Part shown: piece after piece, positions 46,965-57,413 of the stretch
Layout of the letters: each line of letters opens with the position of its first letter
How positions within the stretch are numbered: position 1 is the stretch's first letter
NCBI GenBank assembly: GCA_013360915.1
Contig: JABWAT010000010.1
Location: 1-64,000 of the forward strand
Length of the DNA: 64,000 nt
Source of the DNA: Bacteroidota bacterium
GTDB taxonomy: Bacteria; Bacteroidota; JABWAT01
Direction of reading: 5' to 3'
The notes under the pieces: generated by a model
What the model saw: only the letters and a program-made list of their open reading frames with translations
The model's database searches: none
What the model was told of the DNA's origin: nothing
Program-made: the position numbers and the translations under genes

Positions 46965-48050
46965 TTATTTCGCAGACTTTACCACATCCTGAGCTTCATC
47001 GACGAAATCATTTCCCCAATCCTTGATGATGTCTTCATAAACCAGGTCGTACACATCTTCCCCATCCATTCCACCGATGGGAATTTTCACCTCAACCCAG
47101 GGAGTGTTTCCAAACAATTTTACTGCGGCCGATTCCGATTTGGATGGTTTCTTTTTCGCCACCCATTTATTCAGTTCATCCACCACTTTCTGCCGGTTGG
47201 CATCGCTGGTGTTTTTCACCTGAATGGATACCACGCACGTGGTTCCGAAATTGTCGAGCTGGACCGATTTGGTGCCTTCGTTCTGGCTCCAGTTCCAACG
47301 CCCGCCAGCCGATTTATCGTCCTTCGCCTCATACCCTTCCAGTTGCATCACATACGCAAATTGCGGTTTATTCCAGGTGCTTTGCTTGTTCTTCATCAGT
47401 TTCTTTTTGGTTTCCAGTTCTTCCCACTTGAGGTAGTAGTTGTAATTCCAACCAAGCGTAACAAAGAAATAGGCAATCCGCTCACCCAGATCAGAAGCCG
47501 TCATTTCATTACCGGCAAATAAAACGTTACCAGTCACTTTCAGATAGAGTTTTCCCTCTTCATAGTATTTTTCAGCCTTTACATCCAGGTCTTCGAATTT
47601 ATCGAACTCATCGCGGATCGTTTTGGTCAGTTTTTCAGGATCTGCCGGTTTGATGAGCGTATCGGCTTCGAGCGTGAAAAATTCCATGGTAATCATCGGA
47701 CCCAGATTCATAATGGAACCCGGTCGTTTGTAGTACCGGATTTGCCCGTCTTTCGCCCCTTCCCACCCGTAAGTGGCCGCAATCACCACATTCCACGCAC
47801 CTCCGGGAAGCGGCGAATCGGCTGGTTCTGCCAGATAGGCCGGTAACTGGGTTCCGTCATCGAGAACCAGCGCAGAATTATAATCAAGAGACATGGACCG
47901 GTTAATCGCATACTGCATACACCGCGGACCAAACTCTTCCCGATCGGATTGAAACATCACATTGTGCGAAATGGAGGGATCACAATCATCCTCCTGCGCC
48001 CACCCGGTTACGGAAACCAACATCACCAATAAACCAACCACGAGCTTCAT
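46965..48050 (-). CDS. Secreted protein of unknown function
   Basis: The 361-residue product has a signal peptide (MKLVVGLLVMLVSVTGWAQ) and a mixed alpha/beta soluble region with several Lys/Glu-rich helices (for example FVTLGWNYNYYLKWEELETKKKLMK) and acidic C-terminal segments. The family was not recognised. The start is well supported: GGAGGT lies 5 bases before ATG 48048-48050. The protein probably works in the periplasm or is secreted. It is divergent from the TonB receptor at 48202, with a shared 151-base promoter region, which may mean coordinated expression. Confidence 0.75.
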   Translation of the reverse strand: MKLVVGLLVMLVSVTGWAQEDDCDPSISHNVMFQSDREEFGPRCMQYAINRSMSLDYNSALVLDDGTQLPAYLAEPADSPLPGGAWNVVIAATYGWEGAKDGQIRYYKRPGSIMNLGPMITMEFFTLEADTLIKPADPEKLTKTIRDEFDKFEDLDVKAEKYYEEGKLYLKVTGNVLFAGNEMTASDLGERIAYFFVTLGWNYNYYLKWEELETKKKLMKNKQSTWNKPQFAYVMQLEGYEAKDDKSAGGRWNWSQNEGTKSVQLDNFGTTCVVSIQVKNTSDANRQKVVDELNKWVAKKKPSKSESAAVKLFGNTPWVEVKIPIGGMDGEDVYDLVYEDIIKDWGNDFVDEAQDVVKSAK

Positions 48051-52240: not shown

Positions 52241-52738
52241 TTATTTCGGTGGTCTTAATGTTGAGGGTAGCGGCTTTCTTTCAATCGACGAATGTCCATG
52301 GAGAATCCGCCAGCCGGCGGGGTACTGTTTCATGGTGAGTGACAGCGTTCCGTGATCATACAGGCTGTCACCGGTATTAAGCCGGTACAGATGATCATAC
52401 TCGACGGTGACTGCTGCGGTTTTGGGGTCGAGCAACTGAACATCAAGTGTATCGATGGTCAGCCGCTGATACTGATAGCGGGTTTTATATTGCGAGTATG
52501 CCCTTTTCATCCCCTCAGGGGCCACGTAACGGATCCGGCCATCCTCGATCCAATGAAAACGTTTATCATCGGCCAGGTAGGTAAAGGCGGAATCGTAGTT
52601 TGCATCATTCAGATACCTGAAGTATTGAGTAAAAGTGGCGGTGACTCCTGCTTTCAGTTCTTCATCGGATTGAACGGGGGTTTCGGGAGCCGTGCATGCC
52701 GTTAATACCAGTAAACCGGAAAGAATATACAGTTTCAT
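52241..52738 (-). CDS. NTF2/DUF4440-like lipoprotein
   Basis: The 165-residue product has a lipoprotein signal (LTAC, Cys15) and an NTF2-like domain: ELKAGVTATFTQYFRYLNDANYDSAFTYLADDKRFHWIEDG, then TIDTLDVQLLDPKTAAVTVEYDHLY and GWRILHGHSS. It is exported and anchored, probably to the outer membrane. GGAGGT lies 5 bases before ATG 52736-52738. It follows the mannosyl-3-phosphoglycerate phosphatase gene by 26 bases and may be the last gene of that operon, although no link to mannosylglycerate is known. Confidence 0.82.
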   Translation of the reverse strand: MKLYILSGLLVLTACTAPETPVQSDEELKAGVTATFTQYFRYLNDANYDSAFTYLADDKRFHWIEDGRIRYVAPEGMKRAYSQYKTRYQYQRLTIDTLDVQLLDPKTAAVTVEYDHLYRLNTGDSLYDHGTLSLTMKQYPAGWRILHGHSSIERKPLPSTLRPPK

Positions 52739-52764
52739 TTTACACCTCCTGCTGAAGAAAACAG

Positions 52765-53580
52765 TCAGGAGGCCGGGTTTGTTCCCCGCCAATTCAGCAG
52801 ACGACCGGTCACCTCAGAAAAACCAGCCGGCCCCTCCTCCGTGGTGGAAGCGAGCCCTGGAGGAACCGGTTCCCCACCCAGCCACCAGCCTTCATCAGCG
52901 GATGCCAGCATACCCAGATCATTTTCTCCATCACCTGCCGCAACCAGAAAAAACGATTTTACCCTGTTTTGCTCCAGCCAGACCCGCAGAAACTCAAGGG
53001 CCTTTTCTTTTCCGGCCGATTCATGCCGGAGGGTGATGTATCGGGTTCCCGGATCTGCAATCATTTTCATTGATCTGAGCCATTCTTCAGGCAAAGACCT
53101 GTTAACATCACCGGAAGGGAACAACAACGTTTCGGAATATTTTTTCTGGCGGGCTCTTTCTGCCATTCCCAAGGTTAATCCTGTTGCTGAAGCCAGCTCC
53201 TCTGCAGAACATCTGGTCATCAGTCTGATATCGGCAGGTAACCGGCTGATCAATGCTTCTCTGACGGGCTGGATGGAAAATCCAGCCGGAACCAGCGGGA
53301 TTTCCTTCCACTCAAATTCACCCGCATCGGGCGACAGAATCGTCCATCTATCCGGAACGTGAAAGGCGCTGCCATTTTCGGAAAAGAAGGGAACGGGAAG
53401 AGCAAGGCCCTCACACAATGCCTGCTGTTCTGCTGCGGTTTTTGAAGAAGAAAAAACAACTGGAATTCCGGCCCGGATTAAAGACCGGAGGCATGCATCA
53501 TTACCATCCCACTGGTACGTAAACCGGTTTAACACGGTACCATCCAGATCGGTCAGCAGGATGGGGACCTCAGAAGTCAT
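52765..53580 (-). CDS. mpgP: Mannosyl-3-phosphoglycerate phosphatase
   Basis: The 271-residue protein is a HAD-superfamily (Cof/MPGP subfamily) phosphatase: motif I LLTDLDGT (nucleophile Asp11, Asp13), motif II SSSK (about 44-47), motif III Lys in AGKEKAL (Lys191) and motif IV AAGDGENDLGML (Asp217, Asp221). It removes phosphate from mannosyl-3-phosphoglycerate to give mannosylglycerate. Identity is reinforced by its 11-base overlap with the synthase gene mpgS. Mannosylglycerate is a compatible solute accumulated against salt or heat. Confidence 0.92.
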   Translation of the reverse strand: MTSEVPILLTDLDGTVLNRFTYQWDGNDACLRSLIRAGIPVVFSSSKTAAEQQALCEGLALPVPFFSENGSAFHVPDRWTILSPDAGEFEWKEIPLVPAGFSIQPVREALISRLPADIRLMTRCSAEELASATGLTLGMAERARQKKYSETLLFPSGDVNRSLPEEWLRSMKMIADPGTRYITLRHESAGKEKALEFLRVWLEQNRVKSFFLVAAGDGENDLGMLASADEGWWLGGEPVPPGLASTTEEGPAGFSEVTGRLLNWRGTNPAS

Positions 53581-54760
53581 GAAGGTACCGATCCTGCTGA
53601 AAAATAACCTTTGCTTTTTCCATTGGATACTGTATCAGGGCCGGATAAATACGAGGCCGGTCGGGTTCCTGATCTTTCTTTAGAATCCGTTCCTTTCTCA
53701 AAAGTCCCGTGATTTCAGTTTTCAGGGTAGACGAGGTAACCGGACTGTGATAAATGACGCTCATGGACTGATGAATCATATCACGGACATGTTCAGACCC
53801 CTTTGATTCGTGGAGGTGTGGATTTCTGGATTCAACCTGAAAGATTTCGATGGGATCCTGTAACGATTCTGCCGGAAGATTTAAACCCTGAATTCCCCCG
53901 AATTTTTCGAAAATTCCGATAAAATTATACGTTTCCACTGCAAAGCCCGATGCAATCCCGATCCGGGTTGCCAGATTCATGCTCATCGCATGTTCCCCTG
54001 CATTTCCCGTTTTGATAATATCGGTTTCGAAACCGGTGATCAGGCTGATTAACCGGTTCAGCACCTGATTGGTATGCCGGCTGGCCCTTCCCCATTTGGA
54101 AAAAACCAGTGAGGAGTCAATGGCTTTTGGTTTCGAATGCCATAATATCCGTGACATGTGAAAGGGCGACTTGCTCATGTTAAAGGAAGCCGAGTAGATT
54201 CTGACATACTCCATGACGGCACCCGGGAAATAATTGTCTGCATCAATAAATCCGATGTGTGATTTACCGAGTAACTGTGCCAGCAGAATTCCTGCAAGCA
54301 TTCCTTCTGCCTTGCCCATCCGCAGAGACCCCTGACCGCTAACCACCTCGTGATATCCCATCAGGGTGAATAATTCAGCCAGGTGCGGATCGGTCTGGTG
54401 AATCATCAGATAGGGTCGTTTTGAAAACTGGCAGAAATTATCCACCGTGTTACACTCCATCTGAAACCGGTTGATGGGTTCGTGTGCACTGGCAGAAATT
54501 ATGATGGGAAGGCAGTGCTGGGGGAGGCCGCAAAGAACACCCTCGAGCAAACGAAGTCGTTCGTTTTTTACCGGTATCACAATGGCCATGGTCTCTTCCA
54601 CAGACCTCAGGCGTTCATAGTCAACCGATTTAACAACAAAATACCGGTCGATGGCCCGGCGGGAAGGAATGGGGGAAGAGTCGAATCCGTAAATTTTCTG
54701 GGTATCGTAGATCAGGGCGTTTCCCACCCGCTCAAATGATCGGGGAAGTTCGATCAGCAT
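53570..54760 (-). CDS. mpgS: Mannosyl-3-phosphoglycerate synthase
   Basis: The 396-residue protein is a GT55 retaining glycosyltransferase: N-terminal MAIVIPVKNERLRLLEGVL (nucleotide-sugar part, 58-76), GSLRMGKAEGM (about 144-154) and the metal-binding DADNYFPGAV (Asp173, Asp175). Length is normal for the family. It joins GDP-mannose to 3-phosphoglycerate; MpgP then dephosphorylates the product. The two-step pathway is known from thermophiles such as Rhodothermus marinus and Thermus, and from some mesophiles. Its GGAGG ribosome-binding site (complement of 54766-54770) overlaps a leader hairpin, which suggests translational control. ATG 54758-54760 is the start. Confidence 0.95.
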   Translation of the reverse strand: MLIELPRSFERVGNALIYDTQKIYGFDSSPIPSRRAIDRYFVVKSVDYERLRSVEETMAIVIPVKNERLRLLEGVLCGLPQHCLPIIISASAHEPINRFQMECNTVDNFCQFSKRPYLMIHQTDPHLAELFTLMGYHEVVSGQGSLRMGKAEGMLAGILLAQLLGKSHIGFIDADNYFPGAVMEYVRIYSASFNMSKSPFHMSRILWHSKPKAIDSSLVFSKWGRASRHTNQVLNRLISLITGFETDIIKTGNAGEHAMSMNLATRIGIASGFAVETYNFIGIFEKFGGIQGLNLPAESLQDPIEIFQVESRNPHLHESKGSEHVRDMIHQSMSVIYHSPVTSSTLKTEITGLLRKERILKKDQEPDRPRIYPALIQYPMEKAKVIFQQDRYLHDF

Positions 54761-54768
54761 GAAAGCCT

Positions 54769-54805
54769 CCTCTGGTCATTGATTCTTAAAGAATGTAACC
54801 AGAGG
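54769..54805 (-). promoter_or_regulatory. Leader hairpin overlapping the mpgS ribosome-binding site
   Basis: CCTCTGGT (54769-54776) pairs with ACCAGAGG (54798-54805), with an inner ATTCT/AGAAT pairing (54782-54786 with 54790-54794). On the mRNA (minus strand) the last bases of the outer stem form the first two G residues of the GGAGG Shine-Dalgarno sequence. Melting of the stem would expose the site, as in an RNA thermometer or a salt-responsive leader. Confidence 0.45.
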
Positions 54806-54810
54806 GACTT

Positions 54811-54825
54811 TCCAATTCAATTGGA
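54811..54825. promoter_or_regulatory. Palindrome in the mpgS leader region
   Basis: TCCAATT-C-AATTGGA is a perfect inverted repeat with one central base, 50-65 bases before the mpgS start codon. It may be an operator for an osmotic regulator. No cognate regulator is encoded nearby. Confidence 0.4.
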
Positions 54826-54862
54826 GGAAGAAAAACAGGAAATGGGATTTGTGAAAATTAAT

Positions 54863-56737
54863 TTACCGGTGAATCCTGAAATCTCCCCGGGTAACCTCAT
54901 CGCGCAGACTATCGGGATCCCAACCCGCGTCGGTGGTTTCTATCTGGCCATCGGCCTGAATGATCCGTTCCAGCGCTGCAATTTTCTCACGGGCGGCCCG
55001 AATATATCCGACCTGATCTTTCGATCCGGCAGCCAGTTCCCGAAGGTAAATCTCATCATGCCGAAGAAACGTTTGTGCCGCCCGGTGAGCCTTATGGGCT
55101 CTGAATCCGAGCAGACGCAATGCATCTACACCCATCCGAAGGGACGTATCGAGGGTATCGCGGTAAACACCGTCTATACCGGCGTTGATAAAGTGGTATG
55201 CATCGGGCCTGTCAATGGCTCTGACCAGAATTTTCAGGTGAGGAAAATGCTGCTGAACCGTATGTACCAACGATTGGTTTTTATCGGCATCGTCAAATGC
55301 AATAATGATCACCGATGCATGATGGGCACCGGCCGCATGGAGCAGTTCCAGACGGGTCGCATCGCCATAAAACACCTGCAACCCCAGTCGTCTGATCAGA
55401 TCAACCCGGTCCGCATCATCATCAAGAACGGTCAGATCGATTCCATTGGCCTTCAGCAGGCGCCCGACGGTATTTCCAAACTGATCGTAGCCGGCAATGA
55501 TCACCGGGGTTTCCCCATGAACCATATCGGCTTCCCGTGAGGGTGTTTCGGTGGTTCCGAACCTGGGCAGAATCACCTTCTCGTTCAGAAGGATGGCGAG
55601 CGGAGTCAGTGCCATGCTGATGGCCACAATGGCAATCAGCGTCCCTGCCAGGTCTGAAGTGAAAATGGAACTCTGCATGGCAAAGGAAATCAGAACAAAG
55701 GCAAACTCGCCCACCTGTGACAGACCAACAGCAAAGACCAGATTCTGACTGGTTGTCATTCCGAACAACCGGCCAAGTGCAAACAAAATCAATCCTTTGA
55801 CCACCATGAGCAGGATCACCAGTCCAAAAATGAGGCCCGGCGAGCTGGCAATCAGTTCAAAGTCGATGGAGGCACCCACCGAAATGAAAAACAGACCCAG
55901 CAACAACCCTTTGAAGGGTTCCAGATCGCTGATGAGTTCATGGCGGTATTCGCTGGTTGCCAGCACCACTCCCGCCAGAAAGGTCCCGAGTGCCGGACTG
56001 AGGCCCACCAGACTCATGAGCATGGCGATGGCAATCACCAGAAAAAGAGCTGATGCTGTGAAGAGCTCCTGCAACCGGGTCTTTGCAATAAACCTGAAGG
56101 CGGGCTGAACCAGAAACCGGCCTCCGAGTACGATCACAGACACGGCTCCGATTACAGTAAGCGTTTGCAACCAGGCCGGCCAATGGGCAATGAGGCTGGA
56201 ATGACCCGCTCCGGCCGGTTCACCCGTTGCCAGAAGCGGAAAAACGGCGAGAATGGGAATGACGGCAATATCCTGAAACAGCAGGACGGAAAAACTGCTC
56301 TGACCCGCGGCCGTTTTCATCAGCCCCTTTTCATTCATGGTCTGCAGAACAATCGCTGTTGAGGACATGGCCAGCGTCATCCCGATGGCAAGTGCCGGTT
56401 TCCAGTCCAGACCGAGCAGTATGCATCCGGCTGCCACAACCAGCATGGTGACCAGAACCTGCAAACCACCCAGACCGGCAATGGAAGCGCGCATTCTCCA
56501 CAAAAGCCGCGGTTCGAGTTCCAGACCAATGATAAACAGCATCATGACCACACCGAACTCGGCCACATGCATCACATCATGCCCATCTCCGCCCACCAGT
56601 GACAGGACCGAGGGTCCAATGATCATTCCGGCAATGAGATAACCCAGAACCGAGCCCAGACCCAGACGGTGGGCAATGGGTACCGACAGAACAGCCGCTG
56701 CCAGATAGATAAACGCCTGAAAGAAAAACGAATCCAT
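54863..56737 (-). CDS. kefB: Glutathione-type K+ efflux antiporter, KefB/KefC-like (CPA2)
   Basis: The 624-residue protein has a CPA2 membrane domain of about 13 helices (FFFQAFIYLAAAVLSVPIAHRLGLGSVLGYLIAG, AIGMTLAMSSTAIVLQTM, VGLSPALGTFLAGVVLA) and a cytosolic KTN/RCK domain (about 390-540; VIIAGYDQFGNTVGRLLKAN, LQVFYGDATRLELLHAAGA, ADKNQSLVHTVQQHFPHLKI). YGDATR and HFPHL closely follow E. coli KefB/KefC. The nucleotide-binding loop reads GYDQFG rather than GFGRFG. GGAGGT precedes ATG 56735-56737. Its start overlaps the stop of the KefF-like gene, so the pair forms the known activator-antiporter unit. Confidence 0.92.
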   Translation of the reverse strand: MDSFFFQAFIYLAAAVLSVPIAHRLGLGSVLGYLIAGMIIGPSVLSLVGGDGHDVMHVAEFGVVMMLFIIGLELEPRLLWRMRASIAGLGGLQVLVTMLVVAAGCILLGLDWKPALAIGMTLAMSSTAIVLQTMNEKGLMKTAAGQSSFSVLLFQDIAVIPILAVFPLLATGEPAGAGHSSLIAHWPAWLQTLTVIGAVSVIVLGGRFLVQPAFRFIAKTRLQELFTASALFLVIAIAMLMSLVGLSPALGTFLAGVVLATSEYRHELISDLEPFKGLLLGLFFISVGASIDFELIASSPGLIFGLVILLMVVKGLILFALGRLFGMTTSQNLVFAVGLSQVGEFAFVLISFAMQSSIFTSDLAGTLIAIVAISMALTPLAILLNEKVILPRFGTTETPSREADMVHGETPVIIAGYDQFGNTVGRLLKANGIDLTVLDDDADRVDLIRRLGLQVFYGDATRLELLHAAGAHHASVIIIAFDDADKNQSLVHTVQQHFPHLKILVRAIDRPDAYHFINAGIDGVYRDTLDTSLRMGVDALRLLGFRAHKAHRAAQTFLRHDEIYLRELAAGSKDQVGYIRAAREKIAALERIIQADGQIETTDAGWDPDSLRDEVTRGDFRIHR

Positions 56738-57339
56738 CAGCGCACCTCCTTCAGAACCGGCCACTCTGAGGCCAGTTCGATTCCTTCTGCAGTCTGGTTG
56801 GAATAGTCTCCATCCCGGAAGGCTTCCAGCAACCGGATGTAACGTTTAATTTCCGAATCCAGCTCCTCCGGTTGGATACGATGTGCGCCCTGAATGGCCA
56901 GCGGGGGCAGATAATGCATGCCGCAGAGATAAAATGTCTGATCGAAGGGAGACAGAAAATCACGAAGGGAGAACCGGTTAAATCCGCTTCTTTGGTAAGC
57001 CATGGCCGGGCCGCCGGTGGTGACAATCTGCAGGATCGATTTTCCTGCCAGTGCAGTTCCCTTCGATCCGTATGCCCAGCCATGTTCGAGCACCAGATCG
57101 ATCCATTGCTTGACCAGCGGCGGACAGTTGTACCAATAAAACGGATGCTGAAGAATGATGCGGTTGTACCCGGTCAGACGTGCTTGTTCGGCCTGAACGT
57201 CAATGTTATAATCGGGATAGCACTCGTACAGGTCATGCAGGTGAATTCCATCAATCTGACTGGCCGCACGGATCAGTTTCTGGTTGATTCGTGATTTTTC
57301 ATAGGCCGGATGGCCAAAGAGTAATAAGACTGGTTCCAT
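56737..57339 (-). CDS. kefF: KefF-like NAD(P)H oxidoreductase (antiporter activator)
   Basis: The 200-residue flavodoxin-fold protein matches KefF/MdaB/NQO-type oxidoreductases: VLLLFGHPAYEKSRINQKLI at the N-terminus (FMN loop), NRIILQHPFYWYNCPPLVKQWIDLVLEHGWAYGSKGTALAGK and IVTTGGPAMAYQRSG. In E. coli KefF binds KefC and activates K+ efflux when electrophiles are present. The position directly before the kefB-like gene (one-base overlap, ATG within ATGA) supports that role. It has a 24-residue C-terminal extension relative to the typical KefF length of about 176. Confidence 0.92.
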   Translation of the reverse strand: MEPVLLLFGHPAYEKSRINQKLIRAASQIDGIHLHDLYECYPDYNIDVQAEQARLTGYNRIILQHPFYWYNCPPLVKQWIDLVLEHGWAYGSKGTALAGKSILQIVTTGGPAMAYQRSGFNRFSLRDFLSPFDQTFYLCGMHYLPPLAIQGAHRIQPEELDSEIKRYIRLLEAFRDGDYSNQTAEGIELASEWPVLKEVR

Positions 57340-57413
57340 GGGGCAAAAATAATCGGAAGGACTGATAATCCGATCTCAGCAACTCCGGATGACCCCACTC
57401 ACAAAAAAGTGAG

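Follow-up and report, generated by a model that had tools for sequence, protein, structure and literature searches.

A predicted hairpin over the Shine-Dalgarno sequence in the leader of a mannosylglycerate gene cluster from the Bacteroidota

We analyzed a stretch of 64,000 nucleotides from a Bacteroidota bacterium of the GTDB lineage JABWAT01 (GenBank assembly GCA_013360915.1, contig JABWAT010000010.1, positions 1 to 64,000), in the following referred to as the window, which carries on its minus strand two overlapping genes for the synthesis of the compatible solute mannosylglycerate (MG), mpgS and mpgP, and, directly in front of mpgS, a leader that is predicted to fold over the ribosome-binding site. 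The first gene, mpgS (53570-54760), encodes a mannosyl-3-phosphoglycerate synthase of 396 amino acids, which matches PF09488 with 459 bits (cut-off 27) and the GT55 equivalog TIGR02460 with 457 against a cut-off of 351.2, the latter match covering residues 3-383 of 396. Thermus MpgS (chain 2wvk_A) aligns along the length of the product (E-value 9e-102), and the two proteins are identical in the DADN stretch GFIDADNYFPGA and in RNPHLHE, a DxD-type motif and a C-terminal histidine stretch that we take to be catalytic. The second gene, mpgP (52765-53580), starts 11 bases inside mpgS, the overlap being ATGACTTCTGA, and encodes a mannosyl-3-phosphoglycerate phosphatase of 271 amino acids (HAD-IIB, MPGP type). 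Its top model is TIGR01486 (E-value 2e-37), yet the score stays below the cut-off (128.7 versus 164.75), as does that for TIGR02461 (100.9 versus 244.35); it does exceed the threshold for the broader HAD-IIB model TIGR01484 (55 versus 41.8). Thermus MpgP (3ztw_A) aligns with an E-value of 7e-17, including the DLDGT and GDxxND (here GDGEND) stretches, and because the gene lies directly behind mpgS, its product is likely the phosphatase of the MG pathway. MpgS would thus convert GDP-mannose and 3-phosphoglycerate to mannosyl-3-phosphoglycerate, from which MpgP would release MG. With a GDP-mannose pyrophosphorylase-type domain encoded elsewhere in the genome, this two-step pathway appears complete on paper; an earlier sequence-only reading of this DNA had proposed both the pathway and the 11-base overlap, and the family matches support the former just as coordinates and sequence confirm the latter.

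After a gap of 26 nucleotides, mpgP is followed by a small SnoaL_3-like gene (52241-52738, minus strand, with a likely start at 52738), which scores 36.5 bits against PF13474 (cut-off 22; a longer reading from 52792 was scanned) and has an AGGAGG 6 nucleotides before its ATG. The N-terminus of its product resembles what is presumably a lipoprotein signal (LTAC motif), and we refer to it as the lipoprotein gene. Upstream of mpgS lie a kefF-like and a kefC-like gene, described further below, the order of transcription on the minus strand being kefF, kefC, mpgS, mpgP and the lipoprotein gene.

The stop codon of kefC lies 102 nucleotides ahead of mpgS, and it is this leader that gives the locus its most distinctive feature. 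The Shine-Dalgarno (SD) sequence of mpgS is a full AGGAGG (54766-54771), located 5 bases before the ATG. According to the folding prediction, it is contained in a hairpin at 54761-54812 (minus strand) that has 17 pairs, one bulged A and, capping an inner stem, an apical loop of 3 bases. The hairpin pairs the whole spacer and all SD bases except the bulged A, and it ends at the base before the AUG. The sequence-only reading had described a stem that includes part of a GGAGG ribosome-binding site; this observation is right and somewhat understated, given the 17 pairs and the inclusion of both SD and spacer. The predicted energy is -27.9 kcal/mol, a value reached by none of 200 dinucleotide shuffles (z -4.5; -3.6 and -3.7 in other shuffle sets). 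As a background, we used a 424-kb sample of the same genome with 354 called genes. Leaders with a z as low were found at five of these genes, leaders with a helix of at least 17 pairs at four, and leaders that match mpgS in both low energy and SD pairing likewise at four, each count including mpgS itself. By this measure, the predicted stem ranks within the top 1-2% of the sampled genes and is unusual, yet not singular. It is the RNA helix rather than a DNA dyad that is kept: two G.U pairs and the bulged A break the dyad, whose middle part comprises only 8 perfectly paired bases per arm. The leader and its CTCTGGT...ACCAGAG pair are each single-copy in the genome, which speaks against a repeat element, and no T run follows the stem, which speaks against a terminator. 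A known riboswitch was rejected likewise, as no riboswitch or leader family of Rfam 15 matched the window at the gathering score; the only weaker hits were to eukaryotic families, with E-values of up to 5 and on the wrong strand, and are put down to chance.

A second hairpin of this kind is predicted in front of the lipoprotein gene (52744-52773, minus strand; -17.5 kcal/mol, z -3.2, with 1 of 200 shuffles as good). Here, the AGGAGG of the lipoprotein gene pairs with a CCTCC at the end of mpgP, and the mpgP stop codon (52765-52767) falls within the 5' arm, CCTCCTGACTG. As far as an excerpt of a review on translational coupling by RNA unfolding goes (PMC12548453), the predicted fold of the mpgP-lipoprotein pair has the usual layout of this mechanism, with the downstream SD in a hairpin and the 5' arm at the end of the upstream gene; by analogy, expression of the lipoprotein gene may depend on translation of mpgP. 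The mpgS hairpin differs from the layout in that excerpt, since the upstream stop codon, that of kefC, lies about 50 nucleotides short of the 5' arm, and ribosomes translating kefC should therefore not open it.

The two hairpins are placed on signals that are themselves uncommon in this genome. With starts set regardless of the SD, 41 of 345 genes (~12%) carry a suitably spaced SD motif, and summed over positions, 57 such motifs compare with 7.8 expected; SDs are thus real, but a minority. A full AGGAGG occurs at just 8 of the 354 sampled genes. Five of these eight are among the 62 genes of the window (starts at 48050, 52738, 54760, 56737 and 63780, all on the minus strand), and three belong to the run of five genes from kefF to the lipoprotein gene, namely kefC, mpgS and the lipoprotein gene itself. 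The hypergeometric probabilities are 7e-5 for the run and 0.005 for the window, both computed post hoc and with SD-biased starts. The 16S rRNA gene was not found in the assembly (3.65 Mb in 51 contigs, 99% complete), so the anti-SD sequence is unread.

Taken together, these features suggest that mpgS is under a translational lock to which mpgP and the lipoprotein gene are tied by coupling. In an mRNA that carries the 102-nucleotide leader, the 17-pair hairpin would hide the strong SD and its spacer and hold mpgS shut at the level of translation. As mpgP starts inside mpgS and the lipoprotein SD is hidden behind the mpgP stop, both genes would follow mpgS by coupling: translation of mpgP would ensue from that of mpgS, and ribosomes ending at the mpgP stop would overrun the 5' arm of the second hairpin and free the SD of the lipoprotein gene. 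One lock would thereby govern three genes; candidates for its opener are a trans-acting factor, a ribosome on the leader or the timing of folding during transcription. The proposal supposes that the hairpins would form in the cell and lower translation, that the coupling would operate, and that something would open the lock. We favor it because of the energy of the hairpin relative to shuffled sequences and to 354 genes, because the G.U pairs and the bulged A preserve the RNA helix at the expense of the DNA dyad, because a second SD-sealing hairpin is placed for coupling, and because AGGAGG, though rare in the genome, occurs at three of the five genes in the run. In our estimation, it is the best-supported mechanism, although we hold it tentatively and put it slightly short of an even chance.

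Several points weigh against such a lock. The background counts for folding, SD pairing and AGGAGG use gene starts that were partly picked by SD strength. Within that background, the sequestration of SDs is common: of 76 genes whose SD is good, 14 show it paired to an upstream arm with a probability above 0.8, and in this ranking the lipoprotein gene comes third, whereas mpgS is only ninth because of its bulged A. Moreover, hiding an SD may have less effect here than elsewhere, since most genes of the genome have none. The lock would also operate only if the leader is present on the mRNA, which depends on where the transcript starts. Lastly, the stem is not seen in relatives. The sequence-only reading had named conservation upstream of orthologous mpgS genes as a touchstone, and an equivalent stem was predicted in none of 48 other distinct mpgS leaders, a weak test in that the closest orthologue is only 52% identical. 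None of these leaders has a helix of at least 16 pairs; two reach 15 pairs, with SD pairing to the upstream arm of only 0.48 and 0.20, and an earlier run on 46 other leaders gave no z below -2.3. (From the set of 48 leaders, two loci were left out because the start fell outside the locus and five as exact duplicates, and at one locus, we placed the start manually at the closest ATGAGAA.) In their own right, strongly paired SDs also occur at two other starts in the window, 37506 and 28952 (both on the plus strand), with pairing to the upstream arm of 0.99 and 1.00.

The distances involved leave this comparison with little power. A scan of genome contigs yielded 43 mpgS loci, and in a phylum sample, 8 of 394 genomes had a match, the present one included; its class comprises four genomes in the collection, of which the three others have no mpgS. 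In the mpgS tree, the nearest sequences are from Saprospiraceae; the grouping with the window gene has full support, but the end branch of the latter measures 0.91 changes per site. The mpgS genes of genomes assigned to the same phylum are nearly identical to those of named Rhodothermus metagenome-assembled genomes. At such distance, one would not expect a regulatory stem to be retained, which is why its absence from the 48 leaders decides little. It is, however, also what one would predict for a neutral inverted repeat, which we regard as the strongest competitor of the lock, although unlikely. In that case, the stem would have arisen by a local copying slip and have little or no effect, and mpgS would be under ordinary control of transcription. 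A neutral origin is consistent with the roughly 1% of sampled genes that have leaders as structured, and with a motif that has no second copy in the genome. It accounts less readily for a helix that spans exactly the SD, the spacer and the base before the AUG, and for the SD-sealing hairpin at a second gene of the same run; furthermore, translation should suffer from a strong stem over an SD.

Control could also be exerted on the DNA. The sequence-only reading had pointed to a perfect palindrome just upstream, and this is indeed exact: TCCAATT-G-AATTGGA on the minus strand, at 54811-54825. An inner palindrome, ATTCTT-T-AAGAAT (54782-54794, minus strand), lies within the loop end of the leader hairpin. 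Palindromes of the 7-1-7 type occur in the 424-kb sample at 0.012 per 100 nucleotides, which gives a chance of about 1% for one in the 102-nucleotide leader. These signals coincide with a candidate sigma-70-like promoter inside the dyad, TTGAAT-17-TACATT (54820 to 54792), which reaches 8 of 12 at the optimal spacing; the outer palindrome overlaps its first hexamer, the inner one its second hexamer and the start. Transcripts begun there, near 54785, would be without the 5' arm and unable to form the stem; the SD would be free, and the palindromes would be operators for a repressor or activator. However, 59 of the 354 sampled genes have a site of 8 of 12 in the same stretch, and the genome appears to use a different promoter. 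Motif fitting on 181 upstream regions recovered a TATtTTTG element, absent from eight shuffled sets and from the reverse complement, whereas a start from TTGACA/TATAAT collapsed; the element is of the type known from Bacteroidota, where the promoter consensus is TAnnTTTG, and together with kinship it leads us to regard the organism as one of the Bacteroidota in the broad sense. Within the mpgS leader, there is no good match to this main promoter type, as would be expected if transcription came in from upstream and the mRNA included the leader. As for the outer palindrome, the genome holds no second exact copy; a copy with a single mismatch occurs once, within an open reading frame, and with up to two mismatches, there are 16 places compared to 6 for a control pattern. 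We have therefore dropped it as a regulon operator, and the 'layered control' ascribed to it earlier has no visible regulon behind it. Given how common such site scores are and that the promoter type of the genome differs, we rate control at the DNA level below the RNA-based lock and consider it rather improbable.

The neighboring genes offer a further scenario. The kefC-like gene for a cation/proton antiporter (54863-56737, minus strand) exceeds the cut-offs of PF00999, PF02254 and TIGR00932, but stays below that of the KefC equivalog (684 versus 752; a longer reading from 56764 was scanned); its likely start, the ATG at 56737, was chosen for an AGGAGG at -13 and for the TGATG overlap with kefF, in which the stop of one gene and the start of the other have one base in common. 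The kefF-like oxidoreductase gene (56737-57339, minus strand) matches PF02525, with 209.2 against the KefF model (cut-off 210). The interval that separates it from a MATE-type gene, at 57340-57413 (minus strand), contains a short inverted repeat, ACTCAC-TTTTTT-GTGAGT, and a TATTTTTG element. As the latter ends 5 bases ahead of the kefF ATG, it would make the kefF transcript nearly leaderless. The kefF-kefC pair is kept in two genomes of a sister genus (KefC with ~65% identity), where a different frame follows directly and mpgSP is missing. This speaks against mpgSP having been carried together with kefFC; the two genes appear to have been gained beside, or lost from beside, kefFC in the lineage of the present genome, and a link to potassium efflux would be local. 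One reading frame is shared by kefC, the intergenic stretch (54776-54862, minus strand), which is open for 28 codons, and mpgS; the only stops in between are the kefC TAA and a TGA 18 nucleotides before the mpgS ATG. Such a stretch is expected by chance about one time in four. Within it, a speculative leader frame of 14 codons, TTG...TGA, in the frame of kefC and without an SD of its own, holds the whole 5' arm (54776-54820, minus strand), so a ribosome passing the stretch would clear that arm entirely. Conceivably, then, the five genes from kefF to the lipoprotein gene form one potassium-and-solute operon in which strong SDs are kept as control points, and a ribosome that has started on the leader frame (TTG at 54820) or read through the kefC stop opens the lock. 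If so, solute synthesis would be tied to the translation of the potassium-efflux genes or to stop-codon read-through under stress; we consider this very improbable.

The sequence-only reading had further suggested that the leader may sense temperature or salt, a part of its interpretation that is not supported, while the complete pathway, the overlapping genes and the stem over the ribosome-binding site are. In this scenario, heat or ions would alter the stem and thereby the translation of mpgS, a notion that draws on known producers, in which MG synthesis responds to salt and heat according to partial text of PMC6240254, and on the fact that RNA thermometers do hide SDs. The predicted SD pairing of mpgS is 0.80 (four of five bases) at 10-55 °C, 0.76 at 75 °C and 0.73 at 80 °C; in the model, the stem does not open below 80 °C and is far too stable for a thermometer. 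In this respect, it differs from SD-sequestering elements such as the 4U thermometer of Salmonella, which, as far as described in partial text of PMC10077225, likewise places a hairpin over the SD of a stress gene; the mpgS stem is far longer. The IVYWREL formula relates proteome composition to growth temperature and gives a rough optimum of about 34 °C for this genome, compared to 33 °C for the sister genus, 69 °C for Thermus loci and 79 °C for Rhodothermus loci. The values of 66 °C for Saprospiraceae loci and 51 °C for Dehalococcoidia loci make this a weak control and show the index to be rough on small samples, but overall, it suggests a mesophilic host. MG has been called a solute mainly known from thermophiles, which is dated, as the MG synthase gene of the mesophilic Dehalococcoides was demonstrated to be functional (PMC6240254, partial text). 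For salt, we found no evidence in favor: no Rfam riboswitch matched, and more K+ would strengthen the stem rather than open it. With no melting predicted in the growth range and a mesophile estimate, we reject the RNA thermometer, and we consider a thermometer or direct salt sensor the least probable of the explanations and very improbable.

Returning to the translational lock, its elements have counterparts elsewhere. The mpgS-mpgP operons of Thermus and Rhodothermus share the two enzymes, their order and their adjacent or overlapping arrangement, and the two genes are likewise at most a few bases apart in Saprospiraceae and Thermus. The window mpgS is distant from these (52% identity at most) and differs in having the SnoaL-like gene behind and kefFC in front; no relative of kefC or of the SnoaL-like gene was found by tblastn around the other mpgS loci. 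For the control of a compatible-solute gene at the mRNA level, a parallel is the betT mRNA of Escherichia coli, which is reportedly controlled by RNase III; betT works by the cleavage of a long duplex, and none such is indicated for mpgS. Strong SDs as exceptions in an SD-poor genome of the Bacteroidota type recall rpsU of the Flavobacteriales, which is controlled by ribosomes free of bS21; in Flavobacterium johnsoniae (Bacteroidia), rpsU alone has retained an obvious SD, through which its expression is controlled, as far as partial text of PMC9976891 indicates. The present genome differs in that about 12% of its genes, rather than a single one, have an SD motif, and its rpsU leader has no strong SD, which leaves SD control of the bS21 type unsupported.

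Both the MG pathway and the hiding of SDs as a means of translational control are of a known kind, and in the literature searched, we found no description of an RNA-level regulation of MG synthesis. The lock on mpgS is a well-formed prediction from folding models, without conservation behind it. If true, it would provide a case of translational control in the synthesis of MG. Furthermore, it would mean that an SD-poor bacterium can retain SDs as control points at individual genes, beyond the case of rpsU.

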